Below are positions 1-33,572 of a DNA stretch of 64,000 bases, in pieces; the stretch's first letter is position 1, and every line of letters begins with the position of its first letter. The position numbers and the translations under genes were made by a program. This stretch comes from Bacteroidales bacterium. Lineage in GTDB: Bacteria > Bacteroidota > Bacteroidia > Bacteroidales > UBA1402. Location of the stretch: assembly GCA_017464285.1 (NCBI GenBank), contig JAFUDT010000004.1:124001-188000 (forward strand), given 5' to 3'. The notes under the pieces are model-generated. The model was not told the DNA's origin. It was given only the letters and a program-made list of their open reading frames with translations, and did no database searches.

Positions 1-189
1 GATCAGGTCGATCAGCCATTTCAGGGTTTCGACATCCTTGCCGGGCACGGCAGAACAGACATCGAGGAAATTCGCACCAGCCTCGGTCTGAATTTTCGCC
101 AGATGGCGGATCCAGTCGGCGTTTTTTTCTGCGATTGCCTTGGCGACAGAAGGAATCGCTCCGTTGATTTTTTCTCCGATAATAATCAT
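1..189 (-). CDS. Methyltetrahydrofolate:corrinoid methyltransferase, N-terminal part (cut by window edge)
   Basis: I translated this 63-residue N-terminal fragment by hand; it starts at the ATG whose complement is 187-189 and runs off the window at position 1. It begins MIIIGEKINGAIPSVAKAI and continues with EAGANFLDV and then a region ending KWLIDLI. This matches the start of the pterin-binding (DHPS-like) TIM barrel of AcsE/MeTr and of the folate module of MetH, where the GE(R/K)IN and GA..LD(V/L) segments are conserved. The family moves a methyl group between N5 of tetrahydrofolate and a corrinoid cofactor. It is divergent from the methyltransferase operon at 1129-5979, whose corrinoid protein would be its natural partner; that pairing is inferred from context. 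A strong Bacteroidales promoter lies just upstream. Only the first quarter is visible, so a MetH-like multidomain protein cannot be excluded. Confidence 0.82.
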   Translation of the reverse strand, partial: MIIIGEKINGAIPSVAKAIAEKNADWIRHLAKIQTEAGANFLDVCSAVPGKDVETLKWLIDLI

Positions 190-221
190 GACACTCTTTT
201 CCGTTGAAGAATTACTACGCA

Positions 222-251
222 CAAAAATACGGATTGGGCAGCTATTCTCAA
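222..251 (-). promoter_or_regulatory. Promoter of the MeTr gene
   Basis: Read on the minus strand, TTG (249-251) is followed by exactly 19 bases and then TATTTTTG (222-229). This fits the Bacteroidales consensus TTG-N19-TAnnTTTG. Transcription would start near 215, giving a leader of about 25 nt before the start codon at 189. Confidence 0.7.
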
Positions 252-295
252 AAGAATAAATGCAGTTTTTTTCTGTAGTTTTTGCTATCAATTAT

Positions 296-325
296 CTGTT
301 TTTCTCTGTCAAAGCATTACCTTTG
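296..325 (+). promoter_or_regulatory. Possible promoter of the outer-membrane protein gene
   Basis: TACCTTTG at 318-325 matches the -7 box TAnnTTTG. The -33 position 19 bases upstream reads CTG rather than TTG, so the match is partial. The leader would be about 95 nt. Confidence 0.4.
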
Positions 326-425
326 TCGGGAAATAAGGCTCGTCGCATGTCTGCTGCGGTCGTGTTCTGTAGCTGCTGCCTCTCATGTGGCGTCCCGCTT
401 TTGACAACATTTAAACAAATTGATT

Positions 426-980
426 ATGAAAAGAATGATGATTGTGGCCATCGCCCTGCTTACGGCGGTTATGGCAAATGCTCAGGCAAGTTTTCAGCTG
501 GGTTATCTGGGAAACAACAGCAAAACGGAAACAGCATTGGGGTCCACCAGCGACAGCTATGGCGGATTTATGGTAGGAGCCGATTACAATTTGACTCTGA
601 CCGGCGATCTTAAGGTTGCCCCCGGCCTGAATCTGGACCTGTCTTTCGACGATGACTATACGGAATTTGGTTTCTTCATTCCGATTGACTTTAATTACGG
701 TTTTCAGATTAACGATCAGGTAAGCCTTTCCGTGTTCGCCGGACCGACGGCCTATTTGGGCATTTTGTCGCAGTCGAAAACCGGCGCGGTGACGTACGAT
801 TATTATGAAAACGACTACAGTCGCTTCGAACTGCTTCTGGGCGGTGGTCTGTGGTGTGACATCATGGATTTGATCCGTGTAAAGGCCGGGTACAAATTCG
901 GACTTCTGGACAATTGCAAACTGGATGCCGTCACGAATAAGAACAACTGTCTCTACCTGTCTGTCGGTTATCTTTTCTAA
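426..980 (+). CDS. Small outer-membrane beta-barrel protein
   Basis: The protein has 184 residues from the ATG at 426; a TTG at 420 would add only two residues before this methionine. It opens with a signal peptide (MKRMMIVAIALLTAVMANAQ) cut after Ala-Gln, followed by alternating hydrophobic and polar strands and a C-terminus ending in VGYLF, whose terminal Phe is typical of outer-membrane barrels. Length and strand pattern suggest an 8-stranded barrel of the OmpW/OmpX or PorT-like type. It sits between the divergent MeTr gene and the corrinoid methyltransferase operon on the same strand as the latter, but with its own candidate promoter. A role as a channel for that operon's substrate is possible but unproven. 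Confidence 0.75.
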   Translation: MKRMMIVAIALLTAVMANAQASFQLGYLGNNSKTETALGSTSDSYGGFMVGADYNLTLTGDLKVAPGLNLDLSFDDDYTEFGFFIPIDFNYGFQINDQVSLSVFAGPTAYLGILSQSKTGAVTYDYYENDYSRFELLLGGGLWCDIMDLIRVKAGYKFGLLDNCKLDAVTNKNNCLYLSVGYLF

Positions 981-1025
981 GCAGGAATCCGCCCGTCAGG
1001 TGTGACCTGTATTTATTGTTTGTTG

Positions 1026-1056
1026 TTGCATAATTCGGAAGTTTCCGTTATTATTG
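1026..1056 (+). promoter_or_regulatory. Candidate promoter of the methyltransferase operon
   Basis: TTG (1026-1028), 20 bases, then TATTATTG (1049-1056), close to TTG-N19-TAnnTTTG but one base long in spacing and with one mismatch. The next gene starts at 1129, so the leader would be about 65 nt. I see no riboswitch-like fold, and no cobalamin-riboswitch B12 box was recognised. Confidence 0.45.
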
Positions 1057-1128
1057 CAAACTGAAATCTATAAAGTCCGGACTTTTGACCTCAAGAGTCC
1101 GGCTTTGGATTATCGAAAGGGATAGAGA

Positions 1129-2256
1129 ATGAAGGATGTTTTTGACAACAAGTTGAGGGATTCCCAGGCAACGGCTGTCTCCCCGATTAGTCCGGAAAAA
1201 TTTGATATAGAGGAATATGCATCTTATGAGGCTCCTCTCAACGAGCGTTGTGCCCGGTTCTGGCAGGCTCCGTCCGGAGTGCTGGTCTATCGGCGTATGC
1301 GGGTGGCCGAGGTCTTTTCGGCCGGCAGCCGTGATATGCAGGCTTCGCTGGCTTGGCAGCTGGGAGCATTGAAGGAAAGCATGAAATTCAAGGCAGACAT
1401 ACCCAACTTCCTGGAGCCCTGGTATGGCCTGGGAGTCTTGGCTACGGCCTATGGTGTCGATTATGTGTGGGCCCCGGGACAGGCTCCTGCCATAGAGGGT
1501 AAATTCGCCTCGACGGCCGATCTGCTGGCGGCTTCCTTCAAACCGGTGGCCGAAACGCCGGAGGGCCGTCATAACCTGGAGATGATAGAGTATTTTCTGG
1601 ACAAGACCAGAGGCCGCTTACCGTTGTCTTATTGTGATATCCAGTCCCCTTTGAACACCTTAAGCAATATTATCGATACCAGCCAGTTCTACCTTGATTT
1701 CTGCCTGGATCCGGACTCCATGCAGGCGGCCATGGACAGAACGGCCGACCTGACGGTGGACTTTGTCCGCAAGCAGACAGAAATGATCGGAGACGCACTG
1801 GTCAAGCCGGGTCATGGCTTCTCCTCCAGCCGTGTTTTTGACGGACTGGGTCTTAGCGATGACAGTGTCACGATGATGTCTCCCGACCTGTACCTCGACC
1901 TGGCTGTGCCGGCCATGGTCAAGGCCGGACTTCCTTTCGGCGGCCCTGTGTTTCACTCCTGCGGCAACTGGTCGGACAAGAAAGCCGATATCGTCGGCAT
2001 CCCCCACCTGCGCATGGCCGACGGCGCCTTCTCCCTGGCCACCGATCCCGGAGCCAATCCCACCGAGGGCTTTGCCGATACCTTCGCCGGGACGGGGGTG
2101 GTGCTCAATGTCCGCATTGTCGGCGGTCCCGAGCTGGTGGAAGCCAAGGTACGTGAGCTCTGGAAGCCGGGCATGAAGCTCATTGTGGTCACCTATTGCC
2201 AGACGCCTGAAGAACAGGCTTATGTCTATGATAGAATTCATGAAATATGTCAGTAG
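1129..2256 (+). CDS. UroD/MtaA-family corrinoid methyltransferase (first copy)
   Basis: This 375-residue protein belongs to the uroporphyrinogen decarboxylase-like TIM-barrel superfamily, in the branch of zinc-dependent methyltransferases (MtaA, MtbA, MtvB-type O-demethylases, CmuA). The zinc set of that branch is present: His276-x-Cys278 in the segment FHSCGN, and Cys357 in VVTYCQT. True UroD enzymes of haem synthesis lack this His-x-Cys...Cys site, so a haem role is unlikely. By context it is either the enzyme that demethylates the substrate onto the corrinoid protein at 3572 or one that moves the methyl group from it to a thiol. It is the first gene of the operon, and its stop overlaps the start of the MFS gene by 10 bases, indicating translational coupling. 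It is longer at the N-terminus than the second copy (375 versus 332 residues), and the two are clearly diverged, so they probably have different partners. Confidence 0.85.
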   Translation: MKDVFDNKLRDSQATAVSPISPEKFDIEEYASYEAPLNERCARFWQAPSGVLVYRRMRVAEVFSAGSRDMQASLAWQLGALKESMKFKADIPNFLEPWYGLGVLATAYGVDYVWAPGQAPAIEGKFASTADLLAASFKPVAETPEGRHNLEMIEYFLDKTRGRLPLSYCDIQSPLNTLSNIIDTSQFYLDFCLDPDSMQAAMDRTADLTVDFVRKQTEMIGDALVKPGHGFSSSRVFDGLGLSDDSVTMMSPDLYLDLAVPAMVKAGLPFGGPVFHSCGNWSDKKADIVGIPHLRMADGAFSLATDPGANPTEGFADTFAGTGVVLNVRIVGGPELVEAKVRELWKPGMKLIVVTYCQTPEEQAYVYDRIHEICQ

Positions 2257-3545
2257 AAACGATTAAACCGGGCAATTACCGCTGGCGTGTGGTCGCCTTG
2301 CTCTTTTTCGCCACGACCATCAATTATATCGACCGTCAGGTGCTTGGAATGCTCAAGCCCTTTATCGCCGACGATCTGATGATTACAGAGGCTGGTTACG
2401 GCTATATCGTATCGGCATTCCAGGCGGCCTATGCGCTGGGGCTGCTTTTTGTCGGCCGCCTGATCGACAAGTACGGTACGCGCATCACCTATGCGGTGTC
2501 CATTGCCCTGTGGAGCCTTGCCGGCTGTTTCCATGCCGCGGCCCGCAATGCCTTCGGTTTCGGTCTGGCCCGTTTTTTCCTGGGACTGGGCGAATCGGGT
2601 AACTTCCCTTCGGCCGTCAAGGCTACGGCAGAATGGTTCCCGAAGAAGGAAAGGGCCCTGGCTACCGGCCTGTTCAATTCCGGAAGCAATATCGGAGCCG
2701 TCGTGGCTCCGCTCATTGTGACGGGAGTGACTTTGAAGTGGGGCTGGCAATGGGCCTTCATCATCACGGGCATGCTCGGTTTCATCTGGATGGCTTTCTG
2801 GCTGCCGATGTACAAACTGCCCAAGCAGTCTCCCAAGTTGAGACAGTCGGAACTTGACTATATCAACCAGGACGGTGTCGAGGTCGAGACCAAGAAGGAA
2901 AAGGTGGCCTGGGGACAGTTGCTCAAGTTTAAGGGGACCATCGGTATCTGCCTGGCCCGTTTCGTCTGTGACTGGGTCTGGTGGTTCTTCCTGTTCTGGG
3001 CCCCCGACTTCCTGAACAAGACGCAGGGGGTCGATTTACAGCACATGCAGTGGGCACTGATTATCATCTACACCTTCGCTGCCTTCGGCGGAGTGGCCGG
3101 GGGCGGTCTGTCCTCCTGGCTGATCAGGCGGGGCCGTCCGGTGGCCTTTGCACGCAAGGCTGCCATGCTCTTCTGTGCCCTGCTGGTCGTACCTGTCATC
3201 ATTTTGCCTTCGTCCAAGTCGATAGTGGTCGCCATTGCCCTGATCAGTCTGGCTACTTTTGCCCATCAGGGCTGGGCCTCCAACATCTATACGCTGGTAT
3301 CGGACTATTTCCCCAAAAATCTGGTAGCGACACTGACTTCCCTGGCCGGCTTCTGCGGGTCGGTCGGAGGCGTGCTGGCAGCTTCTTTCGTGGGTAACAT
3401 CCTGCAAATCACCGGCAGCTATTTCGTTGTCTTCCTGACGGCCGGTCTGGCCTATCTGGTGGCCTGGCTCTTCCTGCAGCTGTTCCTGCCCCGTGACGGT
3501 CAGGCTTACAAGGCCGACGAGCTGCCTTCCAAAACAAGTAAATAA
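2247..3545 (+). CDS. MFS transporter, anion:cation symporter (ACS/ExuT-like) family
   Basis: This is a 432-residue integral membrane protein with about 12 hydrophobic segments. The N-terminal signature NYIDRQVLGMLKPFIADDL, the motif GRLIDKYGTR between TM2 and TM3, and the FLGLGESGNFPSAVKATAEWF stretch are typical of the ACS family, which imports hexuronates, aldonates and other organic anions with a cation. It overlaps the upstream methyltransferase gene by 10 bases and is followed 26 bases later by the corrinoid protein. It is therefore almost certainly the importer of the methylated substrate or the exporter of the demethylated product of this pathway. The ACS membership suggests an organic anion, possibly a methyl-etherified or methyl-esterified uronate or aromatic acid. 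That substrate guess is inference only. Confidence 0.88.
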   Translation: MSVETIKPGNYRWRVVALLFFATTINYIDRQVLGMLKPFIADDLMITEAGYGYIVSAFQAAYALGLLFVGRLIDKYGTRITYAVSIALWSLAGCFHAAARNAFGFGLARFFLGLGESGNFPSAVKATAEWFPKKERALATGLFNSGSNIGAVVAPLIVTGVTLKWGWQWAFIITGMLGFIWMAFWLPMYKLPKQSPKLRQSELDYINQDGVEVETKKEKVAWGQLLKFKGTIGICLARFVCDWVWWFFLFWAPDFLNKTQGVDLQHMQWALIIIYTFAAFGGVAGGGLSSWLIRRGRPVAFARKAAMLFCALLVVPVIILPSSKSIVVAIALISLATFAHQGWASNIYTLVSDYFPKNLVATLTSLAGFCGSVGGVLAASFVGNILQITGSYFVVFLTAGLAYLVAWLFLQLFLPRDGQAYKADELPSKTSK

Positions 3546-3571
3546 TCAATGGAAAATAAAAGCATACAACT

Positions 3572-4249
3572 ATGAGTGAGATTCTGGAAAAACTCTTCGA
3601 ATGTGTCGAGTTCGGTAAAATCAACGCTGCCTCTCCCTATCCTCCCCAGCTCAGAGGGCAGGACGGTGCTTCTGAATATACGCAGAAAGCACTGGCCGAA
3701 GGCTTCTCTCCTGCGGAAATCATGGACACGGCTCTGATTCCTGCCATGACCAAAGTGGGGCAGAAGTTTTCTGAAAACAAGATCTTCGTACCCCAGATGC
3801 TTTTGTCGGCCAAGGCAATGAACGCAGCTCTGGTATATATCAAGCCTTATTTCTCCTCCGGTGAAATAAGGCGCAAGGGCACCTTTATCATGGGAACGGT
3901 CAACGGTGACCTGCACGATATCGGTAAAAACCTGGTGTGCATGATGGTCGAGGGTGCCGGCTGGGATGTGATCGACCTGGGGGTCGATGTCGGCCCGGAG
4001 AAATTTGTGGAAAGTGTCCGGCAGCATCCTGATGCCTACGTTGGTTTATCGGCGCTGCTTACCACTACCATGCCCAACATGAAGACGATTATCGATGCCG
4101 TGCGTGCCGTCAGTCCCTCCACCAGATTTATTGTGGGCGGCGCACCCGTTTCGGCCGACTTCGCTGCATCGATAGGAGCTGATGCCTATGCCGACAATCC
4201 ACAGCAGGATGTCGAGGCCCTGGACCGTTTCCTCCAGGAAAGAGCCTGA
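3572..4249 (+). CDS. Corrinoid (cobalamin-binding) protein, MtaC/MtbC/MtvC-like
   Basis: This 225-residue protein has the two modules of methyltransferase corrinoid proteins: a helical cap domain (about residues 1-90) and a Rossmann-like B12 domain. The base-on/His-on motif D-x-H-x-x-G is present as Asp113-Leu-His115-Asp-Ile-Gly, so His115 would be the lower axial cobalt ligand. Further family marks are the GTVNGDLHDIGKNLV stretch, the DLGVDVGPEKFVE segment, and the C-terminal IVGGAPV loop. The protein would carry the methyl group as methyl-Co(III) between the methyltransferases of this operon and the divergent MeTr. It lies between the transporter and the second UroD-like gene with short gaps (26 and 14 bases). 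Confidence 0.93.
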   Translation: MSEILEKLFECVEFGKINAASPYPPQLRGQDGASEYTQKALAEGFSPAEIMDTALIPAMTKVGQKFSENKIFVPQMLLSAKAMNAALVYIKPYFSSGEIRRKGTFIMGTVNGDLHDIGKNLVCMMVEGAGWDVIDLGVDVGPEKFVESVRQHPDAYVGLSALLTTTMPNMKTIIDAVRAVSPSTRFIVGGAPVSADFAASIGADAYADNPQQDVEALDRFLQERA

Positions 4250-4263
4250 TAACGAGCGAAACT

Positions 4264-5262
4264 ATGAAAAAATGGATTGACGAAATAATGCGGACACATC
4301 GGGTGGCTGCAGTCCCCATCATGACCCATCCGGGGATAGAACTCATCGGAAAAACCGTCAGAGATGCCGTCACCGATGGGCAGGTCCACTTTCAGGCTGT
4401 GAAAAAGCTCTCTGAGGTGTACCCTTCGGCCGCCTGCACCACCATCATGGACCTGACCGTTGAGGCTGAGGCTTTCGGTGCCCCCGTCAATATGCCCGAA
4501 AACGAGATCCCGACGGTCTACGGCCGCCTGGTAGGTGATGCCGACGGTGTCGCCTCGCTGCAAGTCCCAGACCTGACGGCAGGACGGGTTCCGCAGTATT
4601 TGCTGGCCAACCGCCTTTGTGCCCAGGCCATCACCGACCGTCCGGTTTTCGGCGGCTGCATCGGTCCTTTCTCTCTGGCCGGCCGCCTGTACGACATGAG
4701 TGAGATCATGATGGCCATCTACATCGAGCCTGACACCATCAGTCTCCTGCTTGACAAATGCACCCGCTTCATCATGCAATATTGCCAGGCCATCAAAGAG
4801 GCCGGCTCTGCCGGCGTTGTCATGGCCGAACCGGCCGCTGGTCTGTTGTCTGACGAGGATAGTGTCCTGTTCTCCACGAAATATGTCAAGAGAGTCGTCG
4901 AGGCAGTCCAGGACGACAGTTTCACGGTGATCCTGCACAACTGCGGCAACACCGGACACTGCACCCGTTCTATGGTCGAAAGCGGGGCCCGGGCCCTGCA
5001 CTTCGGCAACCGTGCAGACATGCCCCGGATCATTGCCGAAGTTCCCGATTACGTCGTGGTCATGGGAAACATCGACCCGGTAGGTGTTTTCAAACAGGCC
5101 GATTCCCAGGAAGTCGGGCTTCGTACTTCCGAGCTGCTGCGGCAAATGTCGGGTCATTCCAATTTTGTCGTTTCTTCGGGCTGCGATTTGCCTCCCCTTG
5201 TCCCTGAGTCCAACATCAAGGCTTTCTTCCAGGCTGTTGACGAATTCAATGAGCAGGTATAA
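4264..5262 (+). CDS. UroD/MtaA-family corrinoid methyltransferase (second copy)
   Basis: This 332-residue protein has the length of MtaA and CmuA-type enzymes. The zinc ligands are His225-x-Cys227 in VILHNCGNTGH and Cys307 in VVSSGCDLPP. The pattern after the last cysteine (CDLPPLVPESNIKAF) is the usual C-terminus of this branch, as is the GPFSLAGRLYDM segment near residue 137. In methanogens such enzymes transfer the methyl group from the corrinoid protein to coenzyme M; in acetogens relatives act on the methylated substrate itself. Which of the two UroD-like proteins here is the substrate enzyme cannot be told from sequence. The stop codon is immediately followed by the ATG of the reactivation protein. 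Confidence 0.87.
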   Translation: MKKWIDEIMRTHRVAAVPIMTHPGIELIGKTVRDAVTDGQVHFQAVKKLSEVYPSAACTTIMDLTVEAEAFGAPVNMPENEIPTVYGRLVGDADGVASLQVPDLTAGRVPQYLLANRLCAQAITDRPVFGGCIGPFSLAGRLYDMSEIMMAIYIEPDTISLLLDKCTRFIMQYCQAIKEAGSAGVVMAEPAAGLLSDEDSVLFSTKYVKRVVEAVQDDSFTVILHNCGNTGHCTRSMVESGARALHFGNRADMPRIIAEVPDYVVVMGNIDPVGVFKQADSQEVGLRTSELLRQMSGHSNFVVSSGCDLPPLVPESNIKAFFQAVDEFNEQV

Positions 5263-5979
5263 ATGGATGCGGCATTCAGAAAATATGAGTTCCCGATAGC
5301 GGAGGTGCTGCCAACGGTCGATCAGTTGTCAGATTTTCTGCACCTGGACGATGAGCAGCATCCGGCCTGGCAGTTTATCATTGACAAGCTGGAGGAAATC
5401 CGTGGACTCGACCTGAAGGCTGTCGGCGGTTACCGTATTTATCCTGTCGGCCAGTTGGACGTCAAGGCGGGGACCCTTGCTTTTGCAGAGGGGATGCTGG
5501 CCCCCCGTCCGCAAGTCTGCGGCTATCTCAGGGAAAGTGAGTTTGCCGCCCTGTTTCTTTGTACGGCCGGCTTTTATTTCACGGAGGAGTCCCATGCCTA
5601 TAACGACCGGGACGAAATTCTGGAGTCCTATCTCATCGACGCCATGGGCTCCAGCACGGTCGAAAATGCCATGAACAGGATTCAGGAAATGCTGAGCCGG
5701 GATATGGAACAGCAGGGGTTGCATATTTCCAACCGTTACAGTCCGGGCTACTGCAACTGGCCCTTGGCCGATCAGAAGAACCTCTTTGCCCTGATCGGGG
5801 ATCAGCCTACTCCGGTCAGACTGGGCGAGTCCTGCCTGATGACCCCTATCAAGTCGGTCAGCGGCATCATCGGCATCGGCTCTCAGATGAAGAAAAGGGA
5901 GTACGGCTGTGCCATTTGTGAAAACAAGACCTGCACTTATCGGCGCATTCTCTCCCGCAGCCGGACTCAGGCCGGTTGA
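5263..5979 (+). CDS. Free-standing MetH-type cobalamin reactivation protein
   Basis: This 238-residue protein resembles the C-terminal activation domain of cobalamin-dependent methionine synthase, which binds S-adenosylmethionine to remethylate oxidised Co(II). The SAM-binding motif R-x-x-x-G-Y is present as Arg158-Tyr-Ser-Pro-Gly-Tyr163, followed by Trp-Pro, and the SVSGIIGIGSQM segment is the usual later motif of this stand-alone family. The C-terminus carries Cys216-x2-Cys219-x4-Cys224, which is absent from MetH and might hold a metal or iron-sulphur centre. The gene begins on the base after the previous stop, so it is strictly coupled to the methyltransferase. It most likely keeps the operon's corrinoid protein active. 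No RamA-type activator is seen in the window. Confidence 0.82.
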   Translation: MDAAFRKYEFPIAEVLPTVDQLSDFLHLDDEQHPAWQFIIDKLEEIRGLDLKAVGGYRIYPVGQLDVKAGTLAFAEGMLAPRPQVCGYLRESEFAALFLCTAGFYFTEESHAYNDRDEILESYLIDAMGSSTVENAMNRIQEMLSRDMEQQGLHISNRYSPGYCNWPLADQKNLFALIGDQPTPVRLGESCLMTPIKSVSGIIGIGSQMKKREYGCAICENKTCTYRRILSRSRTQAG

Positions 5980-5983
5980 GTCC
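5963..5983 (+). terminator. Possible terminator of the methyltransferase operon
   Basis: GGACTCA (5963-5969) and TGAGTCC (5977-5983) form a 7-bp hairpin that includes the stop codon of the last gene. It is followed by CTCTTCC rather than a clean T run, so termination efficiency is doubtful. Confidence 0.35.
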
Positions 5984-6011: not shown

Positions 6012-6863
6012 TCAGATTTGTGCTGTGGCGGGATAGCTGATGGCCGCTGATATGTGGCCGTTCATCCTTTTCAGATCGGCGGCAGCGGTGCGGGCATCGT
6101 GGTAGAACAGCAGCCGGCTGCCGGTCTGATAAGCCTCGTGCAGGATCCGGACTTTTTCTTCGGCGGCAGCCAGAGCGCAGTTGTCGATGGCGGCGATGCA
6201 GCCTTGGGTGATGTGCATGCACATGGGAATGACATCTCCTGAAAAGACCCAGTTGCCCTGGTCAGTCTCGATAAAGGAGACCAGCTGATCGAAGGTATGC
6301 CCCTGGACTATCCGCAGTCTCAGGCCCGGGAACAGCTCGAAGCCCTGGGCCGGTTCGTCTTCGGCCCGGAGCAGCTGCAGCCGGCCGGCTTCCTGGACAG
6401 CCTGCATGTTTTCTTTGAGATAGGCATCACTCTCCCAGAACTTGGGGTGGAGAGAGTTCTCCCACTGTCCGACGGTGGTCCAGTGGCGGGCATTGGGAAA
6501 GGTCATGACCATCCGTCCGTCGGACAGGAACTTGGTACATCCGCCGCAGTGGTCGAAATGCAGATGACTGAGTACGACGTCGGTGATATCCTCTGCGCGG
6601 TAGCCGTGGGCTTCAAGTGCTTTTTCGATGTCCGTCAGGTCGTGAAAGCGATAATAGCTCATACCGACAGGCTTCAGCCCTACGCCTGTGTCAAACAGCA
6701 CCTTCCTCTCGCCGTAGTCCACCAGCAGGCAGCGCATGGCCAGCGGGCAGCGGTTCTCCTGATCGACCGGGTATTTACTGCTCCAGACTTTGCGCGACAT
6801 GACTCCGAACATGGCCCCTCCGTCGGTGGAAAAAAAACCGCTTTCGATGGTGAAGATTTTCAT
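6012..6863 (-). CDS. Metallo-beta-lactamase-fold hydrolase
   Basis: I place the start at the ATG complementary to 6861-6863 (MKIFTIESGFF), giving 283 residues; the open frame runs further upstream but through a GC-rich leader with no family similarity. The metal motif is His100-Leu-His102-Phe-Asp104-His105, with later ligands likely in the segments VQGHTFDQ and FSGDVIP. The FDTGVG and SHLHFDHCGG stretches place it with lactonase/AttM-like and other MBL-fold hydrolases that carry two metals. The physiological substrate is not deducible. It is convergent with the methyltransferase operon and divergent from rmlD. The leader contains a long hairpin and a run of nine C; see findings. Confidence 0.85.
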   Translation of the reverse strand: MKIFTIESGFFSTDGGAMFGVMSRKVWSSKYPVDQENRCPLAMRCLLVDYGERKVLFDTGVGLKPVGMSYYRFHDLTDIEKALEAHGYRAEDITDVVLSHLHFDHCGGCTKFLSDGRMVMTFPNARHWTTVGQWENSLHPKFWESDAYLKENMQAVQEAGRLQLLRAEDEPAQGFELFPGLRLRIVQGHTFDQLVSFIETDQGNWVFSGDVIPMCMHITQGCIAAIDNCALAAAEEKVRILHEAYQTGSRLLFYHDARTAAADLKRMNGHISAAISYPATAQI

Positions 6864-6969: not shown

Positions 6970-7845
6970 ATGGAAAAGAAAACGATATTGGTCACGGGAG
7001 CCAACGGTCAGCTGGGCAACGAACTCCGGCTGCTGGGGCCCCGATATCCCCAATTCAAGTTTGACTTCATTGACATACAGGAACTGGATCTCTGCCAGCC
7101 CCGGGCTGTGTCCGACTATTTTGAAACCCTGCGTCCGGACTATTTGATCAACTGTGCAGCCTACACGGCGGTCGATAAGGCCGAGAGCGATGTGGCACTG
7201 TGCTGGCGCGTGAACCGCGATGCCGTGGAGCATCTGGCCAAGTCGGCCTCGATCTGCGGCTGCCGCTGCCTGCATGTCTCCACTGATTATGTCTTCGACG
7301 GTAAGGGGCTGGGACGCCCTTATCTCGAAACCGATCCTACCGGCCCGGTGTCTGTCTATGGGCAGAGCAAACTCGCCGGCGAGGAGGCTTTGCTCAAGTA
7401 CTGTCCCGATGCAGTCATCCTGCGTACAGCCTGGCTGTATTCCCCCTTCGGGAACAATTTTGTCAAAACCATGCTGCGCCTGGGTAAGGCCGGTTCGGCC
7501 CTGCGTGTCGTCAACGATCAGCTGGGTACCCCCACTTATGCCGCCGATCTGGCAGTCGCCCTGATGACAGTCATCCTCTCGGCCGAGGAGGGGAAGTACG
7601 CTCCCGGCATCTATCACTTCACGGACGAAGGCAGTTGCACGTGGTACGAATTCACCCGGGAAATCCACTGTCAGGCCGGACTTTCGGTCCAAGTCACTCC
7701 GGTCACGACGGCAGAGTATCCGACGGCCGCTGTCCGACCCGCCTACAGCATTCTGGACAAGACCAAGATAAAAATGACCTATGGCCTGACCATCCCTGAT
7801 TGGAAAGACAGCCTGTCACAGTGTTTAAAACGCATTGATTATTAA
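6970..7845 (+). CDS. rfbD: dTDP-4-dehydrorhamnose reductase
   Basis: This 291-residue extended short-chain dehydrogenase is the last enzyme of dTDP-L-rhamnose synthesis, reducing dTDP-4-keto-L-rhamnose with NAD(P)H. The nucleotide-binding loop is GANGQLG at residues 10-16, and the catalytic pair is Tyr130-x3-Lys134 (YGQSK). The NCAAYTAVDKAE and STDYVFDG segments are signature stretches of RmlD. The product is needed for rhamnose in cell-surface glycans and fits the GT2 rhamnosyltransferase-like gene at 29670. The other rml genes are not in the window. The gene ends 10 bases before a GH105 enzyme. Confidence 0.93.
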   Translation: MEKKTILVTGANGQLGNELRLLGPRYPQFKFDFIDIQELDLCQPRAVSDYFETLRPDYLINCAAYTAVDKAESDVALCWRVNRDAVEHLAKSASICGCRCLHVSTDYVFDGKGLGRPYLETDPTGPVSVYGQSKLAGEEALLKYCPDAVILRTAWLYSPFGNNFVKTMLRLGKAGSALRVVNDQLGTPTYAADLAVALMTVILSAEEGKYAPGIYHFTDEGSCTWYEFTREIHCQAGLSVQVTPVTTAEYPTAAVRPAYSILDKTKIKMTYGLTIPDWKDSLSQCLKRIDY

Positions 7846-7855
7846 ACTGATAGAA

Positions 7856-9076
7856 ATGAAAAAGATACTGTTGTTCGCCGCAGTCGTTTTGACGATGGCC
7901 TCTTGCCGGCCCAAACAGGCCCCCTTGTGGAACCGCCCCGGCCAGCCTCTCTCGGTTTGGATGGCTCAAAGCGAGTTACAGCGCCATCCCAATGCCAACA
8001 CGCTGGACAATATGCAGGGCCGCTACAAGTGGAACTATACTTCCAGCATCGAGCTACTGTCCTTCCTGGACCTCCATCGCGCCACCGGCGACAGCACCTA
8101 CCGGGACTATGTACAGCAGTTTGTCGATTCCATGATCAGCCCCGGTGGAGAGATCAGGACCTACAAACTTTCCAACTTCAACCTGGACCATGTATGTCCC
8201 GGACGTTTGCTTTTCGATTTCTGGGAAAAGACCGGAGCGGAGAAATACCGTACGGCCATGAACACCCTTTTTGAGCAGCTGCAGCAACAGCCGCGCACCA
8301 GCGACGGCGGGTTCTGGCATAAGCAGGTTTATCCTTGGCAGATGTGGCTCGACGGCCTCTACATGGGGGAGCCTTTTTATGCCCGCTATGTCTCCACGTT
8401 CGTCCCCGACGAACAGCGTCAGGCCTATTATGACGATATTGTCCACCAGATAACGACGGTGGCCGGACATACCTTCGACCCGGCAACCCGGCTCTACCGC
8501 CATGGCTGGGACGAGAGCCGTGAAATGTTCTGGGCCGATTCTCTCACCGGCCAGTCGGCTCATTGCTGGGGTCGCGGCCTGGGCTGGTATGTCATGTCTC
8601 TGTGCGATGTGCTTGACTATCTGCCCCAGGGCGCCGGCCGTGACTCGGTGGCCGACATCCTGCGCAATATCCTCTACGTGTTGCCCGACTATGCCGACCA
8701 TGGCACGAAAATGTGGTACCAGGTGCTGGACTGCCCGGGCCGTAAGGGTAACTATCTGGAATCGACCGGTTCGATCATGTTTGTCTATGCTCTTCTGAAA
8801 TGTGTCAGGACAGGCATCCTGTCCGAGAAATACACCTTTCTGGCCAAGGACTGGTACCGGAGCTTTGTCAGGTGCTTTGTACAGGAGAATCCCGACGGGA
8901 CCATCTCTATCACAGACTGTTGTGCCGGGGCCGGGCTGGGCGGACCGGCTCTTCGCAGCGGCAAGTTCGACTATTATGTCAGCCAGACGCAGATCATTGA
9001 CAACGACTGCAAGGCGGTCGGCCCCTTTATCTGGGCATCGATGATGTACGAAGACCTGCTGCACGAAGGAAAATAA
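7856..9076 (+). CDS. GH105-type unsaturated (rhamno)galacturonyl hydrolase, lipoprotein
   Basis: This is a 406-residue protein from the ATG at 7856, chosen because it opens a lipoprotein signal (MKKILLFAAVVLTMASC, lipid-attached Cys17). The body is an (alpha/alpha)6 barrel of the GH88/GH105 group: WLDGLYMGEPFYARY places the likely catalytic Asp at 166, and MWYQVLDCPGRKGNYLESTGS is the conserved GH105 stretch near the C-terminal third. These enzymes hydrate the 4,5-double bond of unsaturated uronides released by pectate or rhamnogalacturonan lyases. A lipid anchor puts it in the periplasm or at the surface. It follows rmlD by 10 bases, so co-transcription is likely, though the functional link is loose. 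A pectate lyase lies at 54919. Confidence 0.85.
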   Translation: MKKILLFAAVVLTMASCRPKQAPLWNRPGQPLSVWMAQSELQRHPNANTLDNMQGRYKWNYTSSIELLSFLDLHRATGDSTYRDYVQQFVDSMISPGGEIRTYKLSNFNLDHVCPGRLLFDFWEKTGAEKYRTAMNTLFEQLQQQPRTSDGGFWHKQVYPWQMWLDGLYMGEPFYARYVSTFVPDEQRQAYYDDIVHQITTVAGHTFDPATRLYRHGWDESREMFWADSLTGQSAHCWGRGLGWYVMSLCDVLDYLPQGAGRDSVADILRNILYVLPDYADHGTKMWYQVLDCPGRKGNYLESTGSIMFVYALLKCVRTGILSEKYTFLAKDWYRSFVRCFVQENPDGTISITDCCAGAGLGGPALRSGKFDYYVSQTQIIDNDCKAVGPFIWASMMYEDLLHEGK

Positions 9077-32159: not shown

Positions 32160-33572
32160 TCAATATCTGTAATGCTCGGCTTTATAAGGGCCTTCCACCG
32201 GAACACCGATATAGTCGGCCTGGGCCTGGGTCAGTGTGGACAGTTTGGCTCCCACATGTTCCAGATGCAGGCGGGCCACTTCTTCGTCCAGGTGCTTGGG
32301 CAGCCGGTAAACTTCAACGGGGTAGGGCTTGGTCCACAGTTCAATCTGTGCCAGGGCCTGGTTGGTGAACGAATTGCTCATCACAAAGGACGGATGTCCC
32401 GTGGCACAGCCCAGGTTGACCAGACGGCCGTCGGCCAGCAGAATGACACTGTGCCCGTCAGGAAAGAAATACTGGTCCACCTGAGGTTTGATGTTACGGT
32501 GGCGGATGCCCGGAAAGGCTTTCAGCCGGGCGACCTGTATCTCATTGTCGAAGTGACCGATGTTGCAGATGATGGCCGCATCTTTCATCTTTTCAATGTG
32601 TTCGATGCGGATGACATCGCAATTGCCCGTGGTGGTCACATAGATATCCCCTTCGGCCAGGCTGTCTTCCACGGGTTTGACTTCGTAGCCTTCCATGGCC
32701 GCCTGCAGGGCGCAGATGGGGTCTATTTCATTGATGATGACCCGGGCTCCGTAATCTCTCATCGACTGGGCGCAACCTTTGCCGACATTGCCGTAGCCGC
32801 AGACCACGACCACCTTGCCGGCTATCATGACGTCGGTGGCCCGCTTGATGCCGTCAGCCAGCGATTCGCGGCAGCCGTAGAGGTTGTCAAATTTCGATTT
32901 GGTGACCGAGTCGTTCACATTGAAGGCCGGAAAGAGCAGCTGTCCGGCCGACATCATTTGGTAGAGCCGGTTTACACCGGTGGTGGTCTCTTCCGATACA
33001 CCGCGGATGCCGGGCACCATGTCCGACCAGAAGCGCGGCCGGGCTGCCAACACTTCTTTGAGAATGGCCTTCAGCTCCTGTTCATCCTCTCCTTGGGAAG
33101 GTGCCGAAAGGATGGAGGCATCCTTTTCAGCCTGTACTCCCATGTGAATCATCAAAGTGGCGTCGCCACCGTCATCGACAATCAAGGTGGGCCCCTGACC
33201 GCCAGGGAAGTTCAGTGCCTGCAACGTGCACCACCAGTATTCGGCCAGCGATTCCCCCTTCCAGGCAAAAACCGGCACACCTCTTTCCGCGATGGCGGCG
33301 GCAGCGTGATCCTGGGTGGAATAGATGTTGCAGCTGGCCCAGCGGACGCTGGCCCCCAGGTCGGTCAGTGTCTCGATCAGTACGGCTGTCTGGATGGTCA
33401 TGTGCAACGAACCGGTGATGCGGGCTCCCTTGAGCGGCTTGAGCGGCCCGTATTTGCGACGGACAGCCATCAGTCCGGGCATCTCTTTTTCGGCGATTTC
33501 GATTTCCTTGCGACCGAAGTCCTTGAGCTGAAGATCAGCTACTTTATAGGGTAATGTTGAAAATAGATCCAT
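32160..33572 (-). CDS. ahcY: Adenosylhomocysteinase
   Basis: This 470-residue tetrameric NAD enzyme splits S-adenosylhomocysteine into adenosine and homocysteine, ending the activated-methyl cycle. Diagnostic segments are [16 protein letters not shown], the NAD loop [14 protein letters not shown], and the C-terminal tail ending [11 protein letters not shown] with the NAD-contacting Lys and Tyr. It carries the insertion of about 40 residues ([17 protein letters not shown] region) found in many bacterial AhcY. The start ([16 protein letters not shown]) matches the family. A 190-base leader separates it from rnr. Confidence 0.97.

Follow-up and report, generated by a model that had tools for sequence, protein, structure and literature searches.

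A corrinoid methyl-transfer system in gut Bacteroidales with predicted action on pectin O-methyl sugars

A stretch of 64,000 nucleotides from a Bacteroidales bacterium (the window; C19:124001-188000 of source genome G000, 2.37 Mb and 83.5% complete) begins with part of a gene set that almost certainly performs corrinoid methyl transfer, comprising UroD-superfamily methyltransferases, a corrinoid protein, a corrinoid reactivation protein and a methyltetrahydrofolate:corrinoid methyltransferase (MeTr). Judging from sequence and genome context, it is held here with moderate confidence to be part of a system for the O-methyl sugars of pectin, above all those of rhamnogalacturonan II (RG-II). UroD-type enzymes would shift the methyl group of an imported methyl sugar onto Co(I) of the corrinoid protein: UroD-C, encoded beside a FucP-like permease, would handle 2-O-methyl-L-fucose, and the N-terminal UroD-like part (UmN) of a separately encoded fusion protein would handle 2-O-methyl-D-xylose freed by enzymes of glycoside hydrolase (GH) families GH141 and GH31. 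The methyl group would then reach homocysteine, forming methionine, via the fusion and possibly via UroD-B too, and in the clade of G000 also tetrahydrofolate (THF) via MeTr, where its oxidation to methylene-THF could be the task of a MetF linked to an electron-transfer flavoprotein (ETF). The reactivation protein would return the corrinoid to Co(I).

Gene architecture and conservation

The genes form two divergent operons, a leftward one (MeTr, EtfB, EtfA-MetF, UroD-C, FucP) and a rightward one (UroD-A, transporter, corrinoid protein, UroD-B, reactivation protein). Positions outside the window are those of locus L002 (window coordinate + 13000).

L002 7051-8289, same strand as MeTr: FucP-like permease
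L002 8671-9708, same strand as MeTr: UroD-C, the third UroD
L002 9732-11549, same strand as MeTr: EtfA-MetF fusion of 605 aa, with ETF-alpha and MetF-like domains
L002 11562-12377, same strand as MeTr and behind it: EtfB
Window 1..189, minus strand: MeTr (PRK07535), first 63 codons of 267 aa
Window 426..980, plus strand: small outer-membrane beta-barrel protein between the divergent operons, of uncertain membership
Window 1129..2256, plus strand: UroD-A, UroD-superfamily methyltransferase of 375 aa, zinc site H276/C278/C357
Window 2247..3545, plus strand: major facilitator superfamily (MFS) transporter, nearest NCBIfam model of the galactonate type
Window 3572..4249, plus strand: corrinoid (B12-binding) protein, MtgC/MtbC-like, with D-x-H-x-x-G and lower cobalt ligand His115
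Window 4264..5262, plus strand: UroD-B, MtaA-like methyltransferase, H225/C227/C307
Window 5263..5979, plus strand: MetH-type corrinoid reactivation protein (PF02965)

A sequence-only reading had described the first 5,983 positions as a self-contained locus. Its parts list is borne out, including the D-x-H-x-x-G corrinoid protein with His115, in which the cap (PF02607) and B12 (PF02310) models both exceed their cut-offs, the MFS transporter (TIGR00893 nearest, 281 bits, under the cut-off of 395) and the reactivation protein, sole PF02965 match in the source genome at 32.2 bits. The five rightward genes, read there as one coupled operon, are joined by an overlap of 10 bases and gaps of 26, 14 and 0 bases. 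The MeTr-type gene noted at 1-189 is the start of a stand-alone protein of 267 aa whose 3' end, at L002 12386, lies 614 bases outside the left edge of the window; it scores 309.5 bits with PRK07535, above the 259-bit cut-off, and is a second-step methyltransferase (MT2) of the MeTr type, so that a fused MetH, which the reading had named as weakening its claim, is excluded. Self-containment, on the other hand, does not hold: the system extends beyond the left edge of the window and probably needs unlinked genes as well.

The search for the same gene order in other Bacteroidales, which that reading had proposed, recovered the whole order in a metagenome-assembled genome (MAG) from yak rumen (L036) and the order from UroD-A onward in a goat MAG (L057), a recurrence that argues against a chance arrangement. 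In two further loci (L037, L039) the equivalent position holds only FucP, UroD-C, UroD-A, MFS and UroD-B, and an MFS gene is frequently found immediately 3' of UroD-A in other Bacteroidales. UroD-A itself is present in 8 of 393 sampled genomes of the order and on 24 named contigs, chiefly from rumen and gut and mostly without a linked corrinoid protein. Among 30 genomes checked (the UroD-A carriers and three of genus g113), 29 encode one or more corrinoid proteins with a cap domain; a further, non-MetH one is present in most. In some genomes UroD-A follows a second UroD-like protein, UroD-A', in a single fused protein (L053 8900-11125, L054 8639-10840, L056 4310-6595), and in several others the two are adjacent genes.

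UroD-superfamily methyltransferases

The zinc sites proposed earlier for the two UroD/MtaA-family proteins of the window are conserved in their relatives. UroD-A shows invariant His276 and Cys278 and a near-invariant Cys357 (18 sequences), and H225/C227/C307 of UroD-B, which align with the ligands of MtaA (4AY7), are invariant in 10 sequences; UroD-C keeps His-x-Cys, with no cysteine at the third position. According to the zinc-ligand rule of Kountz and Balskus (PMC10418091), His-Cys-Cys sites go with sulfur substrates and substituted sites with oxygen. UroD-B therefore fits sulfur, and UmN, with His-x-Asp, and UroD-C, without the third cysteine, fit oxygen.

The AlphaFold model of UroD-A (pLDDT 92) has MtaA (4AY8) as its top Foldseek match, and a second structural alignment ranks UroD and MtaA chains equally (Z 20-22, ~300 residues, rmsd 3.5-4.2); in this model-based test UroD-A has the UroD-superfamily fold, families absent from the VIA-align list not being counted as excluded. 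The UroD-C model, which reached pLDDT 49 from three sequences, was not used. An identity with haem-pathway UroD (HemE), the other finding named earlier as weakening the claim, is rejected on model scores: UroD-B reaches 74.7 bits with TIGR01464 (cut-off 302.95), and UroD-A and UroD-C are not listed. UroD-B is also under the MtaA/MtbA cut-offs, with 131.7 of 244 bits for PRK06252 and 101.6 of 400 for MtaA.

The UmN-homocysteine-B12 fusion

The fusion is a protein of 1003 aa comprising (i) UmN, (ii) a homocysteine domain (PF02574, 265 bits) and (iii) B12 cap and binding domains. It is unlinked to the window operon, is the sole homocysteine S-methyltransferase found in the source genome, and is encoded 38 bases from a rhamnogalacturonan lyase of polysaccharide lyase family PL11, on the same strand. 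Neither a pterin-binding (PF00809) nor a reactivation domain was found in it, and without the pterin domain it does not count as a MetH by its domains, although it likely functions as a methionine synthase. All 11 copies read keep the GGCCG motif of the zinc site, D-x-H-x-x-G and, in UmN, YHLDG. UmN also occurs free (~354 aa) or joined to a corrinoid domain only (~600 aa, in the Phocaeicola group). It probably belongs to the UroD superfamily; a profile search of the PDB returned no match up to E = 1.

Carbohydrate context and candidate methyl donors

Across 24 UmN loci of other genomes, a GH31 gene and/or a sodium:solute symporter adjoins UmN in 19, with GH141 also present at 14; at four, as in the source genome, the neighbour is a PL11 rhamnogalacturonan lyase, and one has neither. 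In L144 a single plus-strand run comprises GH31, UmN, symporter, corrinoid protein (68%), UroD-B (61%), reactivation protein (49%) and GH141, and in L165 and L166 a cassette of corrinoid protein, UroD-B and reactivation protein is divergent from GH141-GH31-UmN. The GH141 enzyme BT1002 frees 2-O-methyl-xylose-alpha-1,3-fucose from RG-II (PMC10154630). The best model for the GH31 protein is an alpha-xylosidase (489 bits, under the cut-off of 606), and a GH141-alpha-xylosidase pair exists in B. thetaiotaomicron too, where the literature gives BT_0338 as GH141 and BT0339 as alpha-xylosidase. The GH31-symporter pair (64% and 57%) and GH141 (46%) were sought, and found, in the source genome.

For UroD-C, 2-O-methyl-fucose had been named as candidate because FucP adjoins it, before a UroD-C relative came to light in L168 grouped with a GH139 protein, a corrinoid protein and UroD-B. 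GH139 is a 2-O-methyl-fucosidase family (PMC12282258); the L168 protein scores 880 bits with 9HYQ and matches both GH139 structures deposited with that work. From these neighbourhoods it is rather likely that O-methyl sugars are the donors for UmN and UroD-C.

UroD-A lies near GH28 in L041 and L052, and related clusters occur in L038 and L059. In L169 a GH2 gene adjoins a UroD-A'-like gene and a corrinoid protein; in several genomes the neighbours of UroD-A are housekeeping genes, which give no clue to its substrate. In L143 (7629-8678) and L145 (5609-6673) an oxidoreductase recognised by eye as Gfo/Idh/MocA-like adjoins UmN, GH31 and symporter, and possibly acts on the demethylated sugar.

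Methyl acceptors

Homocysteine is the likely methyl acceptor, judging by the fusion and by the make-up of the genomes that carry it. The source genome has genes for AHCY (window 32160-33572) and for a MetY-like enzyme, thus homocysteine is made there, and in L143 and L167 related gene sets are accompanied by free homocysteine methyltransferases. In L167 (6051-7670) a UroD-thioredoxin-like fusion lies between the corrinoid protein and the homocysteine S-methyltransferase. The presence of metH, which the sequence-only reading had wished to see noted, bears on the same point: in the source genome, at its 83.5% completeness, neither a MetH with a pterin domain nor MetE nor a stand-alone MetF was found.

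Among 19 genomes compared, a stand-alone MetF was found in ten (G108, G357, G111, G211, G019, G064, G408, G394, G402, G405) and not in nine (G000, G393, G409, G395, G208, G400, G406, G407, G398), and MetE in none; in G000, G393 and G409 the ETF-fused form is the only MetF found. The fusion is the sole MetH-like protein in seven of the nine without stand-alone MetF, the other two being G208, with no cap-domain protein, and G398, with only free UmN and a corrinoid protein. All ten MetF keepers carry a MetH-type protein, its pterin-like domain confirmed by similarity for most and not all (undetected in G111; a 783-aa frame only in G108). In four genomes (G357, G111, G211, G408) the fusion occurs together with a MetH-type protein, which makes the fusion seem older than the loss of the folate branch. 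Kinship of the genomes and joint loss weaken the co-occurrence of MetF and MetH below what its count suggests.

With respect to folate, the earlier proposal of import, demethylation and transfer to THF finds support in the clade of G000, where the stand-alone MeTr is divergent from the window operon and lies beside EtfA-MetF, EtfB, UroD-C and the FucP-like transporter. The MetF-like domain scores 59 bits with PF02219 (cut-off 24; model positions 15-179 of 287), and the presence of EtfA-MetF and EtfB beside MeTr suggests an ETF-linked methylenetetrahydrofolate reductase (MTHFR). Among the matches listed from the 393 sampled genomes of the order, only G000 is matched over both halves; the G393 and G409 genomes carry EtfA-MetF as well. 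The presence of MeTr and ETF-MetF thus suggests folate as an acceptor in this clade, which is held with fair confidence. Among the titles and abstracts returned by literature searches there was no ETF-alpha/MetF fusion, corrinoid sugar demethylation or UroD-MetH fusion.

Comparison with known systems and alternative explanations

OdmABC and MtvABC of acetogens and MtoABC of Methermicoccus comprise a UroD-type first methyltransferase (MT1), a separate corrinoid protein and an MT2 of the MeTr/MtrH type acting on a pterin; a UroD-type MT1 with a MeTr-type MT2 is the layout of acetogen O-demethylation. The present system shares the UroD-type MT1, separate corrinoid protein and MeTr-type MT2, but differs in its predicted donors, the O-methyl sugars of pectin, its MetH-type activator, its Bacteroidales host and homocysteine as a further acceptor. 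Methoxylated aromatics as donors, with the sugar genes as neighbours by coincidence, would accord with the MeTr and UroD genes present here; nevertheless, sugar-hydrolase and sugar-transporter neighbours recur across Bacteroidales families, and such donors are very improbable. CmuA, a UroD-like domain fused to a corrinoid domain, demethylates chloromethane; the ~600-aa UmN-B12 proteins of Phocaeicola resemble it, but are accompanied by GH141, GH31 and symporter.

Clusters of the type 1 mlp class (PMC10418091) likewise group MtaA-like His-Cys-Cys proteins, a corrinoid protein and an activator. The window operon could accordingly be a methyl-sulfur or methyl-selenium system, in which the MFS transporter would import a methylated thiol, UroD-A would pass its methyl group to the corrinoid and UroD-B to another thiol, leaving the sugar genes to the other UroDs; the His-Cys-Cys sites of both UroD-A and UroD-B follow the pattern of UroD-family S-methyltransferases, and two such UroDs with a corrinoid protein and activator make up the mlp core. 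The definition of type 1 mlp, however, excludes a tetrahydrofolate methylase gene within 20 kb (PMC10418091), and here the start of MeTr, at window 189, is 940 bases away from UroD-A. The locus also differs in its PF02965 activator (no RACE search was made) and in the carbohydrate context of its relatives: elsewhere UroD-B, corrinoid and reactivation proteins accompany GH31/GH141/UmN or GH139/UroD-C, and UroD-A lies near GH28 in the loci given above. Taken together, a purely methyl-sulfur operon is unlikely.

The earlier alternative that a UroD-like protein serves in methionine synthesis stands in one part, as the only homocysteine methyltransferase found is the unlinked UroD-like fusion; nothing ties UroD-A or UroD-B to homocysteine. 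Like MetH, including its split form in B. thetaiotaomicron (PMC7311316), the system has a zinc-motif homocysteine domain, cap and B12 domains and a separate reactivation protein. It could therefore be a split folate-dependent methionine synthase, in which MeTr would be the folate module, the fusion the homocysteine and B12 modules and the reactivation protein a fourth piece, with the UroD part accessory and ETF-MetF making methyl-THF. G000 indeed encodes all four MetH functions in separate genes, with ETF-MetF as its only MetF, and the reactivation domain is also split off in B. thetaiotaomicron (PMC7311316). On the other hand, the fusion contains a UroD-like domain and lacks a pterin one, and genomes rely on it without stand-alone MetF; it occurs in G395, G400, G406 and G407, where no MetF-like protein was found, so that the donor there is not from a known MTHFR, and UmN is kept in GH31-symporter operons, fused or not. 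This arrangement is quite improbable. A somewhat more probable alternative, still short of an even chance, is that the MeTr/ETF-MetF branch runs towards methyl-THF, for methionine supply or as an electron sink, rather than towards methyl oxidation: MTHFR chemistry is reversible, and no MetF other than ETF-MetF was found in G000, G393 or G409. Against it, ETF-MetF shares its operon with FucP and UroD-C, which are predicted to act as a methyl-donor pair, and ETF could take electrons, neither of which fixes the direction.

Methionine formation without methyl-THF is known from MesA-MesD (PMC7857596), MesA-C having a corrinoid protein as presumed donor; these belong to the MetE family, unlike the fusion, with its MetH-type homocysteine domain and its own corrinoid and donor domains. 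The RG-II enzymes BT1002 (GH141), which frees 2-O-methyl-xylose-fucose, and BT0984 (GH139), which frees 2-O-methyl-fucose, have relatives encoded beside UmN and UroD-C, respectively; in contrast to the action predicted for the UroDs, both are hydrolases that leave the methyl ether intact.

Several observations weigh against assigning the system to pectin O-methyl sugars. The zinc ligands of UroD-A are of the sulfur type, so an O-methyl sugar may not be its substrate, and the compound handled by UroD-A and the MFS transporter may be a methyl-sulfur one. UmN is not called UroD by Pfam or NCBIfam, and its comparison with UroD-A by hhalign (53-59%, E about 1e-4) amounts to a distant likeness only. 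The GH141 family includes a xylanase too; in the source genome, the GH31-symporter pair and GH141 lie on contigs other than that of the fusion, and no GH139 was found in ~86% of the assembly. G208, a genome of the same genus (96% complete; L027, L149), retains UroD-A, UroD-B, UroD-C and FucP, yet no cap-domain corrinoid protein was found in it, nor MetH, MetF or MetE. MetH and MetF are often neighbours, and their joint loss may be one event. Lastly, the close genomes are nearly all MAGs and the source genome is incomplete, which makes absences weak.

Neighbouring features

Downstream of the operon, in L036 and L057 as in the window, are a metallo-beta-lactamase-fold protein resembling YtnP lactonases (window 6012-6863) and a GH88/GH105-type hydrolase (window 7835-9076), the latter fitting pectin use. 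The beta-barrel protein at 426..980 has no counterpart in L036 by similarity to that protein. An AGTCCGG motif is repeated at window 1069-1110, just 5' of UroD-A; it is missing upstream in L036 and is thus probably no conserved operator. No cobalamin or S-adenosylmethionine riboswitch was matched by Rfam in L002, L015, L247, L036, L168 or L144. A weak B12-binding match near window 44.1 kb was taken as false, since the open reading frame there reads as IMP dehydrogenase.

Implications

A route for the use of methyl-ether sugars in the anaerobic gut was not found in the literature searched, although the enzymes that release them from RG-II are already known; B12-dependent demethylation would explain this use, link the degradation of pectin to vitamin B12 and supply methionine from a source independent of folate. 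It also points to specific genes that could be tested in isolates, Phocaeicola coprophilus An818 being one. It is tentatively proposed, as a reading slightly short of an even chance, that some gut Bacteroidales have dropped the folate route and take methionine from the methyl ethers of pectin sugars, through a synthase in which a UroD-like demethylase replaces the folate domain, and that the clade of G000 also feeds folate through an ETF-linked MetF. Should the predicted action on O-methyl sugars hold, it would explain both methyl-sugar use and methionine synthesis without the usual folate branch in gut and rumen Bacteroidales.

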